NCBI RefSeq assembly: GCF_900166595.1
Contig: NZ_LT745763.1
Span: forward strand, 2,786,986-2,850,985
Direction: 5' to 3'
From: Virgibacillus dokdonensis
Lineage (GTDB): Bacteria; Bacillota; Bacilli; Bacillales; Amphibacillaceae
Length of the DNA stretch: 64,000 nucleotides
Part shown: positions 41,333 through 58,671 of the stretch, piece by piece
Numbering within the stretch: the stretch's first letter is position 1
Layout of the letters: the number at the start of each line of letters is the position of its first letter
Notes under the pieces: generated by a model
Databases searched by the model: none
Seen by the model: only the letters and a program-made list of their open reading frames with translations
What the model was told of the DNA's origin: nothing
Program-made: the position numbers and the translations under genes

Positions 41333-41427
41333 TTCGTTAAAAACCCTACTTTATTCGTGCTAGTACAAAATGATACGAACTTTTATAATTTAAACGAATT
41401 GAGCTCTTATAAGGAGGATATAATTAT

Positions 41428-41775
41428 ATGTCACAAACCGCTAACCTGCTTAAGAAAATGACGAAAGCTCTAAAAGAAGATACTTCCTTAATAGATGATA
41501 TGGATGTCGTCTATCAGTTTAATTTTAAAAGCGATTATCCAACCACTTATCAACTACTATTACGCGGAAAAGACAGTTATGTTGTAGAGGGAAAAACAAA
41601 AAAAGCAGATTGTATTTTATTTATGAAAGAAGAGCATTTTCTTCAGCTAGCGACAGGTGAATTAACCGGGACTAAGGCGCTCTTTACTGGTAAGTTAAAA
41701 ATGGAAGGCAATGTGAAATTGGCCTTAAAATTAGAGCATATTCTATCTGCTTATAATCAACATAAGACCGTTTAA
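41428..41775 (+). CDS. SCP2 sterol-carrier-domain protein
   Basis: 115 aa stand-alone SCP2 domain: VVYQFNFKSDYPTTYQLLLR, DCILFMKEEHFLQLATGELT, ALFTGKLKMEGNVKLALKLE are the family core. SCP2 domains bind acyl-CoA, fatty acids or other lipids in the cytoplasm. AAGGAGG lies 8 bases before the ATG. Convergent with, and 3 bases from, the LuxR-type gene whose upstream region carries a FadR-like operator; this points to a fatty-acid-linked locus (inference). Confidence 0.85.
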   Translation: MSQTANLLKKMTKALKEDTSLIDDMDVVYQFNFKSDYPTTYQLLLRGKDSYVVEGKTKKADCILFMKEEHFLQLATGELTGTKALFTGKLKMEGNVKLALKLEHILSAYNQHKTV

Positions 41776-42801
41776 ATTTTAAATGATCCCTTTTCTAATT
41801 GCATACGCAACCGCTTCTGTCCTGTTTTTCACCTCCATTTTTCGCATAATTGCCGTCATATAATCACGAACTGTATACTCGCTTAGATGTAATTTATCAG
41901 CCGCACTACTCGTTGACTCTCCTTCTGCCATCAGTGCTAAAACTTCAACTTCTCTCACAGTTAAGCAGAATGAGCGTTTATCTATATGCGGCTTTTTTTC
42001 GAACTTTCCAATCACTTCTCCTGCACTTTGTCCAAATTTAAGCAAAGCTGTGTATGCGTCTTGTGAGATAGAAAATTGGCTATAAGGCCCTTGATCAAGA
42101 ATAGCTGCACCTATAAGTCGGTTATTTGAAGGCTGATACAGCGGAGCAACAACTATAGACTTCAATTGAAATTTATTAATGTATTCAATAGGAAAGCTTT
42201 CCTTTGCATCCGTAATGAAAAGAGGTTGCAGATATTTCATCCCCTCTCCAAACAATTGCAATAGCTTCATTCCTTTGTCAATCAAAGGAAGATTACGCAC
42301 ATCCTCCATTATTTCTTGAATTGCTTTATTATCAAATTGATGACCTAACAAGCCACTTCCCACTCTATCATCTGATGAATAGGAAAAAATACCACATCTT
42401 TCAAAAGGTAAATAATTAATGAAGCCTTGCGTAACTAATTTCACAGATTCATCAAATGTCTTTGCTTGAATAATGGATTCATAAAACATAATAACAGAGT
42501 CTTTCCATTGCTGTTCTTGACGAGGTGCCTTTAATCTCCTTGAACTGTTTTCAAATAATTGCAATATATAGTTTATAAAAGGAATTGTATAGCCAGCTCC
42601 TTTTCTATCTATACATATTAAAAGTGTACTATACTTATAGGGTATCGTAATCGTATTTTTATTATTGGAATATGGCATACTTGAGAGTGTAAAATATTTT
42701 GTGTAAATAGAAATACCAATTAAACAAGTTCATAGAAAAAGGAAGACCCTTTTTGTAGAATAAAGTTAGCACACAAAATTCACAGAAAAGAGGTCTTCCC
42801 T

Positions 42802-43995
42802 ATGAACCATCTTACTACAGATTTAATTGAAGCACTAGCAAAAAAACAAGATATTGAAGAAGTTTTTCGCCGTCATCTAGAAGAAGCTATTAACCAATTA
42901 CTAAAGCATGAATTAACTGTATTTCTGGATTACGAACCGTATGAACGCAAGGGAGTTCATTCAGGTAACTCTCGTAATGGGTTTTATGACCGTACTTTTA
43001 AGACGGAGTACGGTGAGCTACAACTTCGTATACCAAGGGATAGGAACGGAGAATTTCAACAACAAACAGTGGCTCCATATAAGCGTTCTAATGACACGCT
43101 GGAACAGTTTGTTATTCACCTTTATGAAAAGGGAATCACAACAGATGAAATCGCACATCTAATCGAACGAATGTACGGACATCATTACACCAAACAGACC
43201 GTATCTAACTTAACAAAATTGGTAGCAGAAGATGTACAAGCATTTCATGAACGTAAATTAGAAAACCGTTACGCATGCATTTACTTAGATGCTACTCAAA
43301 TCCCTATCCGTCGTAACACGGTAGAGAAAGAGTCTGTATATATTGCAATTGGGATCACGGAAGACGGCATAAAAGAAGTATTAGACTTTACTATTGCACC
43401 AACAGAATCCGCACACGTATGGGAAGAATTGATGCAGGAACTATATCAGCGTGGTGTTGCAGACGTTCTGCTCTTCATCTCAGACGGTCTAACTGGCATG
43501 ACAGATGCTATTCACCGTGTCTATCCTAAAGCAAAGCATCAGGTGTGCTGTGTCCATGTTGCCCGCAATATTGCTAAGAAGGTTCGTGTCAAAGACCGTG
43601 CAGAGATACTTAGTGACTTTAAAACGGTTTATCATGCCATAGACAAAAAAGAAGCCCTACAAGCGTTAGAACAGTTTCAAAGCAAATGGGAAAAGACATA
43701 TCCACGTGTCATTGACGCAGTTGTAAAAAATGAACAATTATTAACATTTTATGAGTTCCCTGCCTCTATTCGACGGAGTATCTATTCGACAAATTTAATT
43801 GAAGCCTTCAATAAAGAAATAAAGAGATACGTCAAACGAAAAGAGCAGTTTCCAAACAAGGAGGCTTTAGAACGTTTTCTTGTCACGCGATTTCTAGAGT
43901 ATAATCATAAATTCAGCATGCGCTGCCATCGAGGCTTTGATCAGGCAAAATCTGAATTAGTTGCCTTGTTCGAATCTCTGGAAAATGGGACTTAG
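42802..43995 (+). CDS. IS256-family (Mutator-like) transposase
   Basis: 397 aa DDE transposase. N-terminal zinc/HTH region (LIEALAKKQDIEEVFRRHLE, then NGFYDRTFKTEYGELQLRIP), first Asp in YACIYLDATQIPIRR, second in LLFISDGLTGMTDAI, conserved CxxH as CCVHVARNI, and Glu in STNLIEAFNKEIKR. Full length and uninterrupted. AAAGAGG precedes the ATG. The short distance from the left end (about 120 bases) leaves room for a promoter. Confidence 0.95.
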   Translation: MNHLTTDLIEALAKKQDIEEVFRRHLEEAINQLLKHELTVFLDYEPYERKGVHSGNSRNGFYDRTFKTEYGELQLRIPRDRNGEFQQQTVAPYKRSNDTLEQFVIHLYEKGITTDEIAHLIERMYGHHYTKQTVSNLTKLVAEDVQAFHERKLENRYACIYLDATQIPIRRNTVEKESVYIAIGITEDGIKEVLDFTIAPTESAHVWEELMQELYQRGVADVLLFISDGLTGMTDAIHRVYPKAKHQVCCVHVARNIAKKVRVKDRAEILSDFKTVYHAIDKKEALQALEQFQSKWEKTYPRVIDAVVKNEQLLTFYEFPASIRRSIYSTNLIEAFNKEIKRYVKRKEQFPNKEALERFLVTRFLEYNHKFSMRCHRGFDQAKSELVALFESLENGT

Positions 43996-44005
43996 AACCC
44001 GCCAT

Positions 44006-44199
44006 CCTTGACCTTGTTTACGGTCGTGGTGTATATCTACTGGCGGGTGCAGAAAATATAGCCACATAAGGCTCCACCCGCTTTTTTATGGTACCACGAC
44101 CGTACTCTTCTATACTCTCGCTGGCAGGGTCCCCTATGCCCAACACAGCGAATCACAAAGAAGAGGCACAAGGTCAAGGACAAGCAGCTAACGCTGTGG
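44006..44199 (+). other. Nested inverted-repeat structure in the 3' tail of the IS256-family element
   Basis: Four stems: CCTTGACCTTGT (44006-44017) with ACAAGGTCAAGG (44168-44179); TACGGTCGTGGT (44019-44030) with ACCACGACCGTA (44093-44104); GCGGGTG (44043-44049) with CACCCGC (44075-44081) followed by TTTTTT, a terminator for the transposase; and CACAGCG (44144-44150) with CGCTGTG (44193-44199), which crosses the outer stem. More structure than a terminator needs; it may be a non-coding RNA or a DNA fold used in transposition. Confidence 0.65.
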
Positions 44200-44931
44200 C
44201 TATAGAGATTTCCTGATTATTTATTCAGAGTTAACATCTACAAAAGGGGATTTACACAAAATTATTGACACACCCGCATACTTTTTAATAGTTCTTCTGT
44301 TAAATTAAAAAAGGTGCTAGCTTTAAAATCATGAGATGGACGATTCCATTGTTTATTGCTCTGAAACCATTTGCTGATGTAAAATACTTGCTCATTTTTT
44401 TCCACGACTGCTAACCAATCAATTGGAAATTGTTCCGAATTTACAAGTTGATCTAGAAAATCATCTATAGTAAATAGAAAATCTTGTTTATCCGTAAGTA
44501 TATGGTCCCGCATCTTCATAAACACATATTGAATGGCTTGCAGGTCACTATAATCATAGTTTGACTTCCGTTTAACTACCCTATGGACAGCAATTTCCAT
44601 TAAAGTAATAACAAATTGGTTCATGGGCTGACTTACAGATTTCCTCTTCCCTACTTCGTTTATTTTAATTAATAGAGCTTCTTTATCATATTGAGAATCA
44701 AAGATTAAATCTGAAAGCACTTGTAATGAAATAGGGATTTTTGCTAACTTCGTTTCACCACTTTCAAAATAACCTGAAACTTGTTTCCAATGATACTCAA
44801 TTTGTTTTTGGTTTTCTCTTATTAAACATAAACCATACTGAAAAAAAGTATCCATATATTGGTCTAACCGCATTACTTTCGCCTCTTTTCTTTTTTTAGA
44901 TAAAAGTTAATAACCACCACCTCACGAACGA

Positions 44932-44949
44932 TGAATGATTATTCATTCA
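44932..44949. promoter_or_regulatory. FadR-type operator upstream of the LuxR-type gene
   Basis: TGAATGATTATTCATTCA is a perfect 7-4-7 inverted repeat (8-4-8 counting outer A/T) and matches the published B. subtilis FadR (YsiA) consensus TGAATGAMTANTCATTCA at all but one position. It lies 59 bases upstream of the regulator ATG, within its probable promoter. FadR represses fatty-acid beta-oxidation genes and is released by long-chain acyl-CoA. The rest of 44874-45221 contains no gene. Confidence 0.7.
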
Positions 44950-45221
44950 TAAATAGACGACATCCTATAATTTTAGGGGGATTATTGCCGCATTTTTTGA
45001 AATGCTACAATTTTCGGAATTGAATAGATAACAAAAAGAATCTACAGTTAGATTAACATCTTCAGTATAACAGATATGATTTTTCATTTCTGTACTATAA
45101 CTGAATTTATATTAACAAAAATTAAAAAGGTTTACAACACGATGGAAACATTGTTCAAAGGAGCGTGATATCAAAAAATGCAATTTAGAAAGCATTGTAA
45201 ATAAAAAAGGAGGAGATTCTC

Positions 45222-46406
45222 ATTCATAAATTCTCAAAAAAATTGATCATGGTAGTGTTGAGCTTTTTTATTGTGTTTTTCTATAGTGGTGGAATGAAGA
45301 CGGCACATGCCCAAGAAACAACAAAATCATTTAATTATGTATGTACAGCCAATACTTCTTTTGGTGAGATAGCTATTAATATGAACGTTACACCAACTGC
45401 CACAGTACCAAATAAAGTACAAGCCAATCAGGAGTTTTCTGTTTCTAATATACAGACTACTATTGGTGTAGACTTAACCGGACAAATCGAACCATTAAAG
45501 GGATTTATTAACCCATTTAACGGTCATGTAAATCAATTGAATTTAACATCGCCAAGTGAAACAGTGAATGTGTTTGGTTCGGAAGGAGTGGCTATTCCCG
45601 AGACGCCATTTGATCCCAACGATACCCTGATTTCCTTTCAAATTAGTGGCAATGATACGAATTTCAATGCAGGAGAGGATGATGTAAACATTCATGTAGG
45701 TGAAATAGAAGCAGAAATTTATGCAAAATTAGGCACGACACCAATTGATCTACCTGTCACTTGTACCCCTCCAGAAGATACACTGTTTACAACAGTAAAA
45801 GTGGAAGAAAAGCTGGATAATCAAGCACCTGTTATTACGTTAAAGGGTGATAACCCAATGACTATAAAAGTTGGAGAAACATACAACGATCCAGGAGTCA
45901 TGGCTAAAGATGAGATAGACGGGGATCTAACTAAGCAAGTAATAGTTTCTGGTGATCTGAATACTGAAAAACTAGGCGAATACAGCATTACATATACAGT
46001 AGAAGATAAAGCCGGAAATCAAGCGACAGCTACTCGAATTGTATATGTAGAAGCTGCAGAACCAGATGACGATGAAAAGCCGGGGGATGGTGAAAAACCT
46101 AGTGACGATGAAAAGCCAGAGGATGATGAAAAACCTAGTGACAGTGAAAAGCCGAGCGACGATGAAAAACCGGGTGACGGTGAAAAGCCAGGGGATGATG
46201 AAAAACAGGATGATGGCGAAAAACCGGGGGATGATGAAAAACCAGAAGAAAATAATTTAGGTGCAGGAAATGATGACAATAAACCTGGTAACGGCGTAGT
46301 GCTTCCAAATACTGCAACGAATATACCGTTCATATTATTAATCGGTGCAATACTTCTAACAGCAGGCGCGTCCATACCTTTGTTTAGAAAATATATTTTT
46401 AATTAA
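45222..46406 (+). CDS. Sortase-anchored (LPNTA) surface protein with Ig-like domain
   Basis: 394 aa if started at ATT 45222 (AAGGAGGAG 8 bases upstream gives the signal peptide MHKFSKKLIMVVLSFF, cut after TAHA); the first conventional codon in frame, TTG 45243, is 29 bases from that site and lacks the basic n-region. Then a unique N-terminal domain (about 30-195), one Ig-like DUF5011 domain (NQAPVITLKGDNPMTIKVGE to TRIVYV, about 200-280), about ten 6-residue (D/G)D(D/G)EKP repeats, LPNTA, a membrane segment and FRKYIF. LPNTA suits a class D sortase; none is in the window. Ligand unknown. Confidence 0.85.
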   Translation: MHKFSKKLIMVVLSFFIVFFYSGGMKTAHAQETTKSFNYVCTANTSFGEIAINMNVTPTATVPNKVQANQEFSVSNIQTTIGVDLTGQIEPLKGFINPFNGHVNQLNLTSPSETVNVFGSEGVAIPETPFDPNDTLISFQISGNDTNFNAGEDDVNIHVGEIEAEIYAKLGTTPIDLPVTCTPPEDTLFTTVKVEEKLDNQAPVITLKGDNPMTIKVGETYNDPGVMAKDEIDGDLTKQVIVSGDLNTEKLGEYSITYTVEDKAGNQATATRIVYVEAAEPDDDEKPGDGEKPSDDEKPEDDEKPSDSEKPSDDEKPGDGEKPGDDEKQDDGEKPGDDEKPEENNLGAGNDDNKPGNGVVLPNTATNIPFILLIGAILLTAGASIPLFRKYIFN

Positions 46407-46653: not shown

Positions 46654-49152
46654 ATGGGAAAAGCGGGTTATATTTCCGCAGAAATAAAACGTATTTTCCA
46701 AAATAAACATGTAATTCTCACCGTCTCTTTAGCTATATTCGTCCCACTTCTATATGCCATGATTATGTTGTCACCAAAATGGGGTCCTTATGACAATACG
46801 AATAATTTACCAGTAGCAGTAGTAAACAATGACCAAGGTGCCATGTCAGATGGTGAGCGTCTAAACATCGGCGATAGTTTAATGACTAGCTTGAAGGAAA
46901 ACAAATTGCTAGGCTGGGAGTTTGTATCGTCCAAAGAAGCGAAAAAAGGCATGGATAATATGAAATATTATATGACGATTGAAGTTCCAGAAGACTTCTC
47001 AACAAAAGCCTTGACCGTTCTCGATGATGAGCCAATAAGACCTACATTACATTACATGCAGAATGAAGGGCTACACTTCATGGCAGCACAAGTTACTAAT
47101 AAAGCTGCTGAATCAATAAAAACGCAGTTATCTACACAAATAACCACAACATATGTAGAAAATGTAGTCGCTCAATTAAAAGAAGTATCAAGTGGATTTA
47201 CAGAAGCCTCAGATGGTGCGAAACAGATCAATCTTGGGTCTAATAAACTAAAAAATGGGTCTGAGCAAATTCTAGATTCTTTAAATGAAAAATCCTCCGA
47301 TATCAAACGATTAGCAAATGGAGCTCAACAATTAGAAGATGGGTCCCAAACGATGAAAGAATCGCTGGTTTCTAAACAGGAAAATATAACGAGTCTTGCT
47401 AAGGGTGCGCGAGAATTAAATATAGGAACAGGCACACTTTTAAACAACTTACAAAATAAAACAAATGATGTCACAAAATTAGCTAATGGCTCTTCACAGG
47501 TACATGAAGGAACGATACAGTTAATGAACGCTTTAAATGAAAAATCAGCTGATATTGCTCGTCTATCCAATGGGGCTTCCGAATTAGCAGATGGAGCGAA
47601 CGAACTACGTACTGGTTCCACAAATTTATTGACAGGCGCAAAACAAGCAAAAGATGGAACAACACAACTGAAAAATGGGCTTAGTGAAAGGATTATCCCC
47701 GGAAGCGAACAATTAGCTACAGGAGTTCAACAAGCCCAAGCAGGTGTTCACGATACCATTCAATCCATGCAAAGCTTACAAGCAGCGCTTCAAGAATTAC
47801 CCAACAGTGTTGACGGACTAGAAGATAATGCTTTATACAACATCATTATGGCTCAACTAAATGAAACTTTAAAAACAAGCCCACAAAAACAAAAAGATTT
47901 TCAAAAGCTTGTTAACGGAGCAAATCAATTACGAGACGGCCTAAAAAATGAGCTAAGTGTAGGTGTGACCGATTTGAACAGTGGTCTTAAGCAACTTGTA
48001 GAAGGTCAACAACAATTTCAAAACGGTGTAATTGAACTAGAAAAAGGAGCGACTGAAGTAGCAGCTGGTAATAAAACCGTAGAAGCAGGATGGAAAGAGT
48101 TACAGACAAACGTAGCTACATTACAGGAAGGAACCAAGCAAATAAAAGACGGGAATCTAACTGTAAAAAGTGGGTGGAGTGAGCTTACAGCTGGTACGAA
48201 ACAATTGCTTAATGGCTCCAGACAAGTACGTGATGGAAACAAGACAGTAGAGATTGGGTGGCAAAAATTGACCGCTGGTGCAATAGAACTGGAAGATGGT
48301 TCTAGTCAAGTAAGCGCTGGAAATCAAACTGTAAAACAAGGCTGGGAAACGTTAACAGATGGGGTTTCACAAGTAGACGGTGGCCTAGCAAATTTATCTG
48401 ATGGAAGTGAAGAATTACAAGCAGGTTTAGAGGGAGGTGCTGCGAAAACGAACAATTTAAACACTACCCAAGAAAATATTTCCATGTTTGCGGAACCTGT
48501 TGTTTTAGATGGCGAAGTAATGAACAGCTTTCCTTTTTACCGTGATTCAAACGCACCATACATTTTAACATTAGCGCTTTATGTTGGCATTTTAATTATG
48601 TCCTTTGCAGTTAAATATCGCACTCCTGTTATTATTCCTCCATCAGCAACAGCTTGGTTTACTGGCAAAGCTATAAAGCTAATAATGCTTGCTATTCTAC
48701 AAGCATTAATCCTATCTTTATACACACTCGTTTTCCTAAATTTAGATGTGCAAAGCGGTGTTTCTTTCGTCTTGTTTTCTATTATGGTAAGCTTAACTTT
48801 CTTAATGATTATTTTATTCTTAGTAAGTGCAGCTGGAAATGTTGGGAGATTTATAGCATTGGCATTCGTTATCCTGCAATTGTCCACAACCGGATCACCC
48901 TTACCAGTTGATATGCTCCCAGAAGGATTACGTCAGATGAGTACTTTCTTACCATTTACGTATTCGCTTGAAAGTTACAGAAGTATTATATCTTTAGGCA
49001 TAACCTCCAATACATGGGAGAGTGTTGGCGGTCTATTCTTATATTTTAGTATTTTCGCATCACTCGCTATGAGTGTGTTCTATATTCGATTCAAATTTAT
49101 GAGAAAACAAATGCATTATCAAAATAGTGATGCTAAGGAATCCGTTAGCTAA
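46654..49152 (+). CDS. YhgE/Pip-family membrane protein
   Basis: 832 aa. N-terminal membrane segment (about 20-40), a long extracellular helical region rich in G-A/S-xx-L-xx-G repeats (about 185-600), and about five C-terminal membrane segments (about 630-815), the YhgE/Pip layout (phage-receptor YueB and Esx-associated EsaA relatives). Residues 471-570 hold a 28-residue repeat (GN-TV--GW) four times; the DNA period is exactly 84 bp at 48067, 48151, 48235 and 48319. AAAGGAGG 7 bases before the ATG. The TetR gene that often accompanies yhgE is absent. Function unproven; could be transport or phage adsorption. Confidence 0.85.
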   Translation: MGKAGYISAEIKRIFQNKHVILTVSLAIFVPLLYAMIMLSPKWGPYDNTNNLPVAVVNNDQGAMSDGERLNIGDSLMTSLKENKLLGWEFVSSKEAKKGMDNMKYYMTIEVPEDFSTKALTVLDDEPIRPTLHYMQNEGLHFMAAQVTNKAAESIKTQLSTQITTTYVENVVAQLKEVSSGFTEASDGAKQINLGSNKLKNGSEQILDSLNEKSSDIKRLANGAQQLEDGSQTMKESLVSKQENITSLAKGARELNIGTGTLLNNLQNKTNDVTKLANGSSQVHEGTIQLMNALNEKSADIARLSNGASELADGANELRTGSTNLLTGAKQAKDGTTQLKNGLSERIIPGSEQLATGVQQAQAGVHDTIQSMQSLQAALQELPNSVDGLEDNALYNIIMAQLNETLKTSPQKQKDFQKLVNGANQLRDGLKNELSVGVTDLNSGLKQLVEGQQQFQNGVIELEKGATEVAAGNKTVEAGWKELQTNVATLQEGTKQIKDGNLTVKSGWSELTAGTKQLLNGSRQVRDGNKTVEIGWQKLTAGAIELEDGSSQVSAGNQTVKQGWETLTDGVSQVDGGLANLSDGSEELQAGLEGGAAKTNNLNTTQENISMFAEPVVLDGEVMNSFPFYRDSNAPYILTLALYVGILIMSFAVKYRTPVIIPPSATAWFTGKAIKLIMLAILQALILSLYTLVFLNLDVQSGVSFVLFSIMVSLTFLMIILFLVSAAGNVGRFIALAFVILQLSTTGSPLPVDMLPEGLRQMSTFLPFTYSLESYRSIISLGITSNTWESVGGLFLYFSIFASLAMSVFYIRFKFMRKQMHYQNSDAKESVS

Positions 49153-57732: not shown

Positions 57733-58671
57733 TTGAGTACGAGAATGGAGAAAAGCAAAAAAAAGCGGAAATGGCCGTTATGGCTAGGTAGTATCTTTAT
57801 AGCCATTCTTTTAATTGTAGGAGCAACTATTTTTTACATTTGGAATCAAATTAATAGCACAGTTGACACGATGCATAACCCACTTTCACGTGACAATGAT
57901 CCAGAACGACAAAAAGAACTCGAAGCTATCTTTAAAGATACAAAAGCTGTGAACGTTTTACTGCTCGGAGTCGATGAACGAAGCGGTGATAAAGGAAGAT
58001 CGGATACGATGATCCTTTTATCGCTTAATCCAAAAACGAATGCAATGAAAATGATAAGTATCCCCCGTGATACATATGTCAACATTCCTGGTAGAGGAAA
58101 AGATAAAATTAATCACGCATATGCGTTCGGAGATGTAGAACTATCCGTCCAAACCGTGGAGGAAAACTTTGATATTCCAGTACATTACTATGCCAGTGTC
58201 AACATGGAAGGTTTTAAACAAGGGATTGATGCATTAGGTGGAGTGACCGTCACGAATAAGACCGCTTTTTCTCAAGGGGGTTCTGAATTTCCAAAAGGTG
58301 ACGTGCAATTAAACGGAGAACAAGCATTAGACTACATACGGATGCGAAAAAATGATCCCAGAGGTGACTTAGGTCGTAATGAACGACAGCGCGCAGTAAT
58401 CATGGCTGCTATTAATAAAGGAGCTAGCTTTTCAAGCATTACTAAATTTGGAGATATACTTACCATACTCGGGGATAATGTCAAGACGAATTTGGACATG
58501 GATGATATGCAGACGTTATTCAGCAACTATCGAAACACGAGAAATAACATATCCACTATAGAAATTAAAGGGAACGGTCAAATGATCGGCGGGATTTGGT
58601 TTTATGTTGTCCCTGAGTCGGAGTTTAGTCGTGTACAGTCTGAGATTAAAACGCATATGGATGGGAAATAG
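57733..58671 (+). CDS. tagU: LCP (LytR-CpsA-Psr) family wall-polymer ligase, TagU-like
   Basis: 312 aa. Basic N-terminus, one membrane anchor (about 16-38), extracellular LCP domain with VLLLGVDERSGDKGRSDTMI, ISIPRDTYVNIPG and ALDYIRMRKNDPRGDLGRNE (conserved Arg/Asp residues for polyprenyl phosphate). Attaches wall teichoic acid to peptidoglycan. TTG at 57733 with AGGAG 8 bases upstream is preferred to the GTG at 57724. B. subtilis has tagU(lytR) next to yvyE too. Confidence 0.88.
   Translation: MSTRMEKSKKKRKWPLWLGSIFIAILLIVGATIFYIWNQINSTVDTMHNPLSRDNDPERQKELEAIFKDTKAVNVLLLGVDERSGDKGRSDTMILLSLNPKTNAMKMISIPRDTYVNIPGRGKDKINHAYAFGDVELSVQTVEENFDIPVHYYASVNMEGFKQGIDALGGVTVTNKTAFSQGGSEFPKGDVQLNGEQALDYIRMRKNDPRGDLGRNERQRAVIMAAINKGASFSSITKFGDILTILGDNVKTNLDMDDMQTLFSNYRNTRNNISTIEIKGNGQMIGGIWFYVVPESEFSRVQSEIKTHMDGK

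Follow-up and report, generated by a model that had tools for sequence, protein, structure and literature searches.

Which genes did the interrupted LuxR-type regulator of Virgibacillus dokdonensis control, and what is left of that control in the strain sequenced? The question is raised by a locus in the 64,000-nucleotide stretch of the genome analysed here (the window), where one minus-strand gene is split by a 1593-bp insertion sequence (IS) of the IS256 family at 42683-44275. Judged by sequence comparison, the intact locus is a widespread regulatory unit, in which the regulator probably switches both flanking gene sets via a candidate DNA site. Taken as a whole, the explanation developed below is considered likely: a one-component regulator with predicted operators acts on divergent and convergent targets, receives input from FadR and has been split by the IS.

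The disruption itself is ordinary. The element lies between two copies of the 8-bp target-site duplication GCATACTT, at 42675-42682 and 44276-44283, recognized by inspection and by comparison of the flanks. Its plus-strand gene (42802-43995) encodes a 397-residue transposase (NF033543, 392.3 bits against a cut-off of 150, E = 1.6e-117; PF00872, E = 8.2e-119), and its 22-nt terminal arms (42687-42708 and 44250-44271) are 86% complementary. The Mutator-type transposase, imperfect terminal inverted repeats and 8-bp duplications are shared with the IS256 family; IS256 is about 1.3 kb long, so that the window element is the longer of the two. Transposase matches in the whole genome number 14, including diverged or partial copies. 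Eight full-length copies were compared. Seven, including the copy in the window, are identical, the eighth differing from them at two positions; perfect 8-bp repeats flank seven of the eight, the repeats at L168 being imperfect. These near-identical copies indicate that the element has been active recently.

The frames on either side are the halves of one gene, as the original prediction held. The N-terminal half lies at 44276-44873 and the C-terminal half at 41779-42678, both on the minus strand; the N-terminal frame (ORF 44262-44873) reads on into the IS, where it ends with a stop at 44262. Searched separately, both halves match one uninterrupted 497-residue open reading frame (ORF) in Virgibacillus chiguensis, by sequence the nearest relative of the strain, at 95% over residues 1-199 and 97% over residues 199-497. 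The V. chiguensis locus also provides the empty site: both flanks of the IS align to one continuous stretch carrying a single GCATACTT (L038:6934-6941). The intact protein reads LLKSMPYSNN at the junction, the same sequence and overall length that had been predicted from the duplicated repeat by rejoining LLKSM to PYSNN.

The product appears, from its sequence, to be a conserved Bacillales protein with a globin-like fold, a GAF domain and a LuxR helix-turn-helix (HTH). The C-terminal GerE HTH scores 62.8 bits against a cut-off of 23.5 (PF00196, E = 2.2e-17) and is present in all 37 homologues scanned, an alignment set selected by the authors from 49 orthologous loci (L069-L117). A GAF domain is also recognized, so both the GAF-like sensor and the LuxR HTH first proposed are borne out. 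Autoind_bind was not among the first 25 of the 56 families listed in the domain scan of homologues; Foldseek lists RhlR, SdiA and QscR alongside GAF/PAS proteins. The N-terminal domain, formerly classed as unknown, now looks globin-like, its fold being taken from the V. chiguensis part, and is followed by a short alpha/beta segment. H97 is nearly invariant among the homologues. RsbRD_N was considered as the identity of this domain and rejected. It was matched in six of the 37 homologues at E = 10 or better, below the Pfam cut-off and at inconsistent positions, and for this reason the domain is called only globin-like. Its closest known counterparts may be the domains of globin-coupled sensors and the non-haem globin domain at the N-terminus of RsbR. 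The GerE HTH and GAF domain are shared with LuxR/NarL-type one-component regulators that carry GAF sensors; the present regulator differs in its globin-like N-terminal domain, its locus-specific candidate operator and its acyl-CoA and envelope context.

Intact homologues are the rule. A single ORF of at least 480 residues, matching from residue 60 or earlier to residue 490 or later, occurs at 42 of the 49 loci. Regulator ORFs of 501-512 residues with a diverged N-terminus are found at L112-L115, and one of 459 residues at L111. In two relatives a stop (L080) or a frameshift (L092) breaks the gene near residues 114-134, away from the site of the window insertion and with no IS involved; both cases resemble decay or sequence error more than two genes. 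A relative in which two distinct genes occur in the absence of the element, which would have spoken against a split gene, was thus not clearly found. The family spans about 20 named Bacillales genera. Loci labelled Roseburia, Chryseobacterium and Paenibacillus (L072, L117 and L125) resemble Virgibacillus, Cytobacillus and Neobacillus loci, and their labels may be wrong. Relatives of about 393-404 residues in Geobacillus (L133-L136) have a gene for an HpaB-like flavin monooxygenase downstream, a hint of another branch of the family. In one genome of the same genus (L039:6741-8224), a C-terminal remnant of a YhgE gene directly adjoins mid-gene sequence of the regulator; most of YhgE, the LPXTG gene described below and the N-terminal part of the regulator are missing there, apparently by deletion.

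The genes around the regulator suggest what it may control. On the convergent side lies a plus-strand gene for an SCP2-domain lipid carrier (41428-41775; PF02036, 60.7 bits against a cut-off of 21.3, E = 1.9e-16), separated from the C-terminal half of the regulator by 3 bp (41776-41778), exactly where it had been placed in the original prediction, whose coordinates are correct. The corresponding gap in V. chiguensis measures 259 bp (L038:5779-6037), and this tight convergence is not conserved. On the divergent side, two plus-strand genes are putative targets: one for an LPXTG-type surface protein (45243-46406; PF16403, NF058670) and one for a YhgE/Pip-type membrane protein (46654-49152; TIGR03061/TIGR03062). 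The ATG of the ORF called in V. chiguensis corresponds to ATA in the LPXTG gene of the window (within 45195-45260), which may use a non-ATG start codon following AGGAGG.

Across the 49 loci, genes of acyl-CoA breakdown recur downstream of and antisense to the regulator: an AMP-forming acyl-CoA ligase (23 loci), SCP2 (22), a thiolase (20), an SDR (18), two acyl-CoA dehydrogenases (18 and 16) and an enoyl-CoA hydratase (16). At one further locus the ligase and SCP2 lie on the opposite side of the regulator. Antisense genes also encode DUF6230 (34 loci, upstream in 28), DUF6114 (31), a secreted protein (34), relatives of the LPXTG protein (9) and relatives of YhgE (7). All these counts are minima, some loci being cut by contig ends; the operon families were checked on one locus, and those of the other antisense genes on examples. 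A second set of relatives (L118-L137) was counted at 19 of its 20 loci, L137 being excluded because no regulator ORF was called there. DUF6230 is antisense to the regulator in 17 of these 19, and SCP2 and the ligase in none. The trio of DUF6230, DUF6114 and secreted protein, antisense to the regulator, is a conserved feature of many Bacillales, seen at L118-L137 and at many of the loci L077-L117. Profile comparison relates DUF6230 to the secreted protein (probability 97.5) and found no relation between DUF6230 and the LPXTG protein; DUF6114 was not found in the genome of the window strain. Many acyl-CoA operons at L079-L091 and L107 carry two SCP2 genes, near both ends.

Of the operon, only SCP2 is present at the locus in the window strain and in V. 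chiguensis. In the window genome as a whole, the ligase is matched at best at 40% (residues 346-496) and the second acyl-CoA dehydrogenase at best at 26% (residues 19-352). Since other Virgibacillus-like loci (L070 and L072) keep ligase and SCP2, the window operon seems to have been reduced by loss before the insertion, a view drawn from comparison of loci.

How might one regulator reach both gene sets? A candidate operator, the palindrome TCCCTACA-NN-TGTAGGGA, is found at both the divergent and the SCP2 promoters. Enumeration of palindromes in SCP2 promoters gave top patterns that were mostly AT-rich and no better than shuffles. CCTACA-NN-TGTAGG was followed up because its GC content stood out; it occurs in 7 of 21 of these promoters against a shuffled maximum of 8 for that gap, and is not significant there. 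The divergent side is far clearer: with up to two mismatches, the palindrome lies upstream of the regulator in 39 of 69 regions, against 0.3 expected in shuffles and one of 69 for the reversed pattern. A first matrix was trained on the best sites of the promoters under test and is circular; with it, 15 of 18 pairs in SCP2 promoters are 40-43 bp apart and none were seen in shuffles. A held-out matrix was built from 14 distinct divergent-promoter sites at 24 loci, none of which supplied an SCP2 promoter for the test, although one training locus (L110) carries SCP2 and ligase genes elsewhere. The test set comprised 21 SCP2 promoters, L092 having been dropped because its SCP2 gene is internal. Regions of 300 bp preceding other ORFs of the same loci (100 residues or longer), coding DNA included, served as controls. 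At 4.5 bits, sites occur in 20 of 21 SCP2 promoters and in 52 of 273 controls; at 3 bits the figures are 20/21 and 73/273, and at 6 bits 19/21 and 27/273. Pairs 38-44 bp apart are present in 12 of 21 SCP2 promoters and 5 of 273 controls.

In the window, operator A (44962-44979) scores 18.1 bits, and with the held-out matrix 15.7 bits, the best site in the 64 kb. Operator B (45002-45019) follows 40 bp away at 8.8 bits (held-out, 10.5); elsewhere a site at 57806 (11.2 bits) lies slightly above operator B and one at 2015 (10.7) is about equal. Upstream of SCP2 there is a weak possible remnant (41343-41360; 4.4 bits, held-out 2.6) for which no paired second site was found. A search of the strain's own genome at two mismatches gave 147 forward against 108 control sites and was uninformative.

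Several of these results, with others, weigh against a regulator acting on both sides through this site. Of the 69 upstream regions, 30 lack a match within two mismatches, and many of the positive ones come from close relatives. Of the 273 control regions, 52 also pass 4.5 bits. Pairing at divergent promoters is irregular (of 34 pairs, 9 are at 40-43 bp and 6 at 31-32 bp), and many Neobacillus divergent loci have a single site. The SCP2 promoters of the window strain and V. chiguensis retain one weak site only. Promoter-like hexamers are no more frequent in the region than in shuffles (15 against 14.9). SCP2 itself was not found at 26 of the 49 loci, some of which end at contig boundaries. The absences at 30 loci also leave room for the palindrome to belong to another factor, with the regulator acting elsewhere. 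This is judged unlikely. Fourteen genomes, eight of them chosen for a known exact palindrome at the regulator promoter, contain 11 exact sites: eight are at regulator promoters, and the three others lie inside unrelated coding sequence, where a global factor would have more. Moreover, the motif also marks the SCP2 operons that adjoin the regulator.

The link between the regulator and fatty-acid metabolism proposed for this strain runs through FadR. A box, TGAATGATTATTCATTCA, lies at 44932-44949, 58 bp before the start codon of the regulator, and has no mismatch to TGAATGANTANTCATTCA, which is taken here to be the FadR consensus. The site, first reported with one mismatch, is a plausible FadR box. 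The FadR orthologue encoded in the window genome and B. subtilis FadR (3whb, E = 1.2e-75) can be aligned over their full lengths. Scanning the whole genome for TGAATGANTANTCATTCA with up to two mismatches gave 12 sites, against two for the reversed control. Four have at most one mismatch. Apart from that in the window, one precedes a 3-hydroxyacyl-CoA dehydrogenase gene by 23 bp, a second is at a long-chain acyl-CoA ligase gene, and the third lies between fadR and a further ligase gene of this type. The eight sites with two mismatches include several inside ORFs and one 115 bp upstream of a gene for a 703-residue cysteine-rich CCG-domain protein, presumably FadF. An orthologous FadR and a similar palindrome at fad-type genes are thus shared with the FadR (YsiA) regulon of B. 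subtilis. The five operons listed for B. subtilis in one account (PMC4525379) do not include a LuxR-type regulator beside an SCP2 gene.

Boxes with up to three mismatches occur upstream of the regulator at 7 of the 49 loci, against 0.19 in shuffles and none for the reversed pattern, a patchy distribution among orthologous loci. The seven belong to V. chiguensis, two Pseudogracilibacillus, a Bacilli metagenome-assembled genome, Lentibacillus and two Paucisalibacillus records. Among five other same-genus genomes with the regulator gene, one has the box and four, one of these with a truncated gene, do not. The original prediction had looked to relatives for an intact gene, an adjacent SCP2 gene and a FadR box; the first is confirmed, convergent SCP2 genes are found in several, and the box is not constant. 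At up to two mismatches the pattern gave 11 matches in 75 loci and none for the reversed control. Five of these were set aside as coding sequence of Geobacillus paralogues: four lie in a called ORF, and the fifth, in L137, shares their position in a locus where no regulator ORF was called. No FadR box was recognized at the promoters of the SCP2 operon, the best match in 22 having five mismatches; the Ornithinibacillus locus L087 has a two-mismatch box upstream of the ligase.

The 42 of 49 loci without a box within three mismatches tell against a general role for FadR, and the window box sits in an intergenic region of about 370 bp shared with the LPXTG gene. Both facts would suit a palindrome that is accidental or non-functional, or that serves only the LPXTG gene. 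Such an origin is given a low probability, for the match is perfect, the other sites with at most one mismatch are at fad-type genes, several genera have the box ahead of the regulator, and it is 293 bp from the LPXTG ORF, much further than from the regulator start. The box is very probably a FadR site, and FadR control of the regulator in the window strain is probable, as a lineage-specific trait.

The proposed mechanism of the intact system can be set out in steps. (i) The gene would encode a one-component LuxR-type regulator composed of the globin-like domain, the short alpha/beta segment, the GAF sensor and the GerE HTH. (ii) This protein most likely binds the candidate palindrome, in pairs 40-43 bp apart (about four helical turns) at SCP2 promoters. 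(iii) It would activate the divergent envelope genes (DUF6230, DUF6114 and the secreted protein, or LPXTG and YhgE), probably with autoregulation. (iv) It would likewise activate the convergent acyl-CoA breakdown operon, of which SCP2 is the first gene in many genomes. Activation is favoured over repression because the operator sites precede the SCP2 start codons by about 60-120 bp. (v) FadR would sit over the regulator promoter in the window strain, in V. chiguensis and in some other genera; given the position of the box between operator A and the regulator start, long-chain acyl-CoA would release FadR, relieve this repression and raise regulator synthesis. The earlier description of the locus as fatty-acid-responsive draws on the neighbouring genes and on FadR.

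What, then, does the insertion do? With its sensor and DNA-binding halves parted, the regulator has most likely lost its activity, and both gene sets should lose its input. As the operon is small in this strain, SCP2 and the surface and YhgE genes may be all that is visibly affected. A different outcome would be continued synthesis of the C-terminal GAF-HTH fragment, for instance driven by a promoter at the end of the IS; the fragment would then act constitutively or in a deregulated manner, the insertion having rewired the regulator. The fragment is a 299-residue open frame with an ATG start and an intact HTH, and its ATG lies within the target duplication, so it might still be made. Inspection by eye shows, at the IS end, two hexamers (TTGGTA and TATTTT, spaced by 17 bp) that loosely resemble a promoter facing outward, and regulator ORFs of about 390 residues, some 100 shorter, exist in Neobacillus and Geobacillus. 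Set against this, the ATG is supplied by the duplication, no Shine-Dalgarno sequence precedes it by eye, and the promoter scan, which found no promoter excess, did not list the TTGGTA/TATTTT pair. Rewiring of this kind is judged quite improbable, and loss of function remains the preferred reading.

Loss of function may also have mattered little. The chances are about even that the locus was already dispensable in the clade and that the insertion was one step of ordinary decay without phenotype, a view compatible with the main explanation. The lack of close relatives of the ligase and the second acyl-CoA dehydrogenase in the window genome speaks for it, as does the apparent deletion at the L039 locus; the full-length regulators kept in four other same-genus genomes, and the operator pair and FadR box still intact in the window, speak against it.

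The regulatory locus appears to be undescribed: among the matches listed, titles and abstract openings in the open-licence literature yielded no description of the regulator or its operator, which does not prove that none exists. On balance the evidence leans towards a Bacillales signalling system in which a globin-like/GAF/LuxR regulator and its locus-specific predicted operator couple envelope proteins to an SCP2-headed acyl-CoA operon, perhaps for the uptake and degradation of one hydrophobic substrate, with FadR gating the regulator in several genera. For the regulator family of about 20 named genera this offers a testable operator and regulon, and ties the uncharacterized DUF6230 and DUF6114, through co-location and a shared motif, to the metabolism of acyl-CoA. 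With V. chiguensis as its intact sister, the window strain serves as a natural insertion mutant. The locus suggests a second regulatory layer under FadR; if true, FadR gating in several genera would constitute a two-step fatty-acid cascade.

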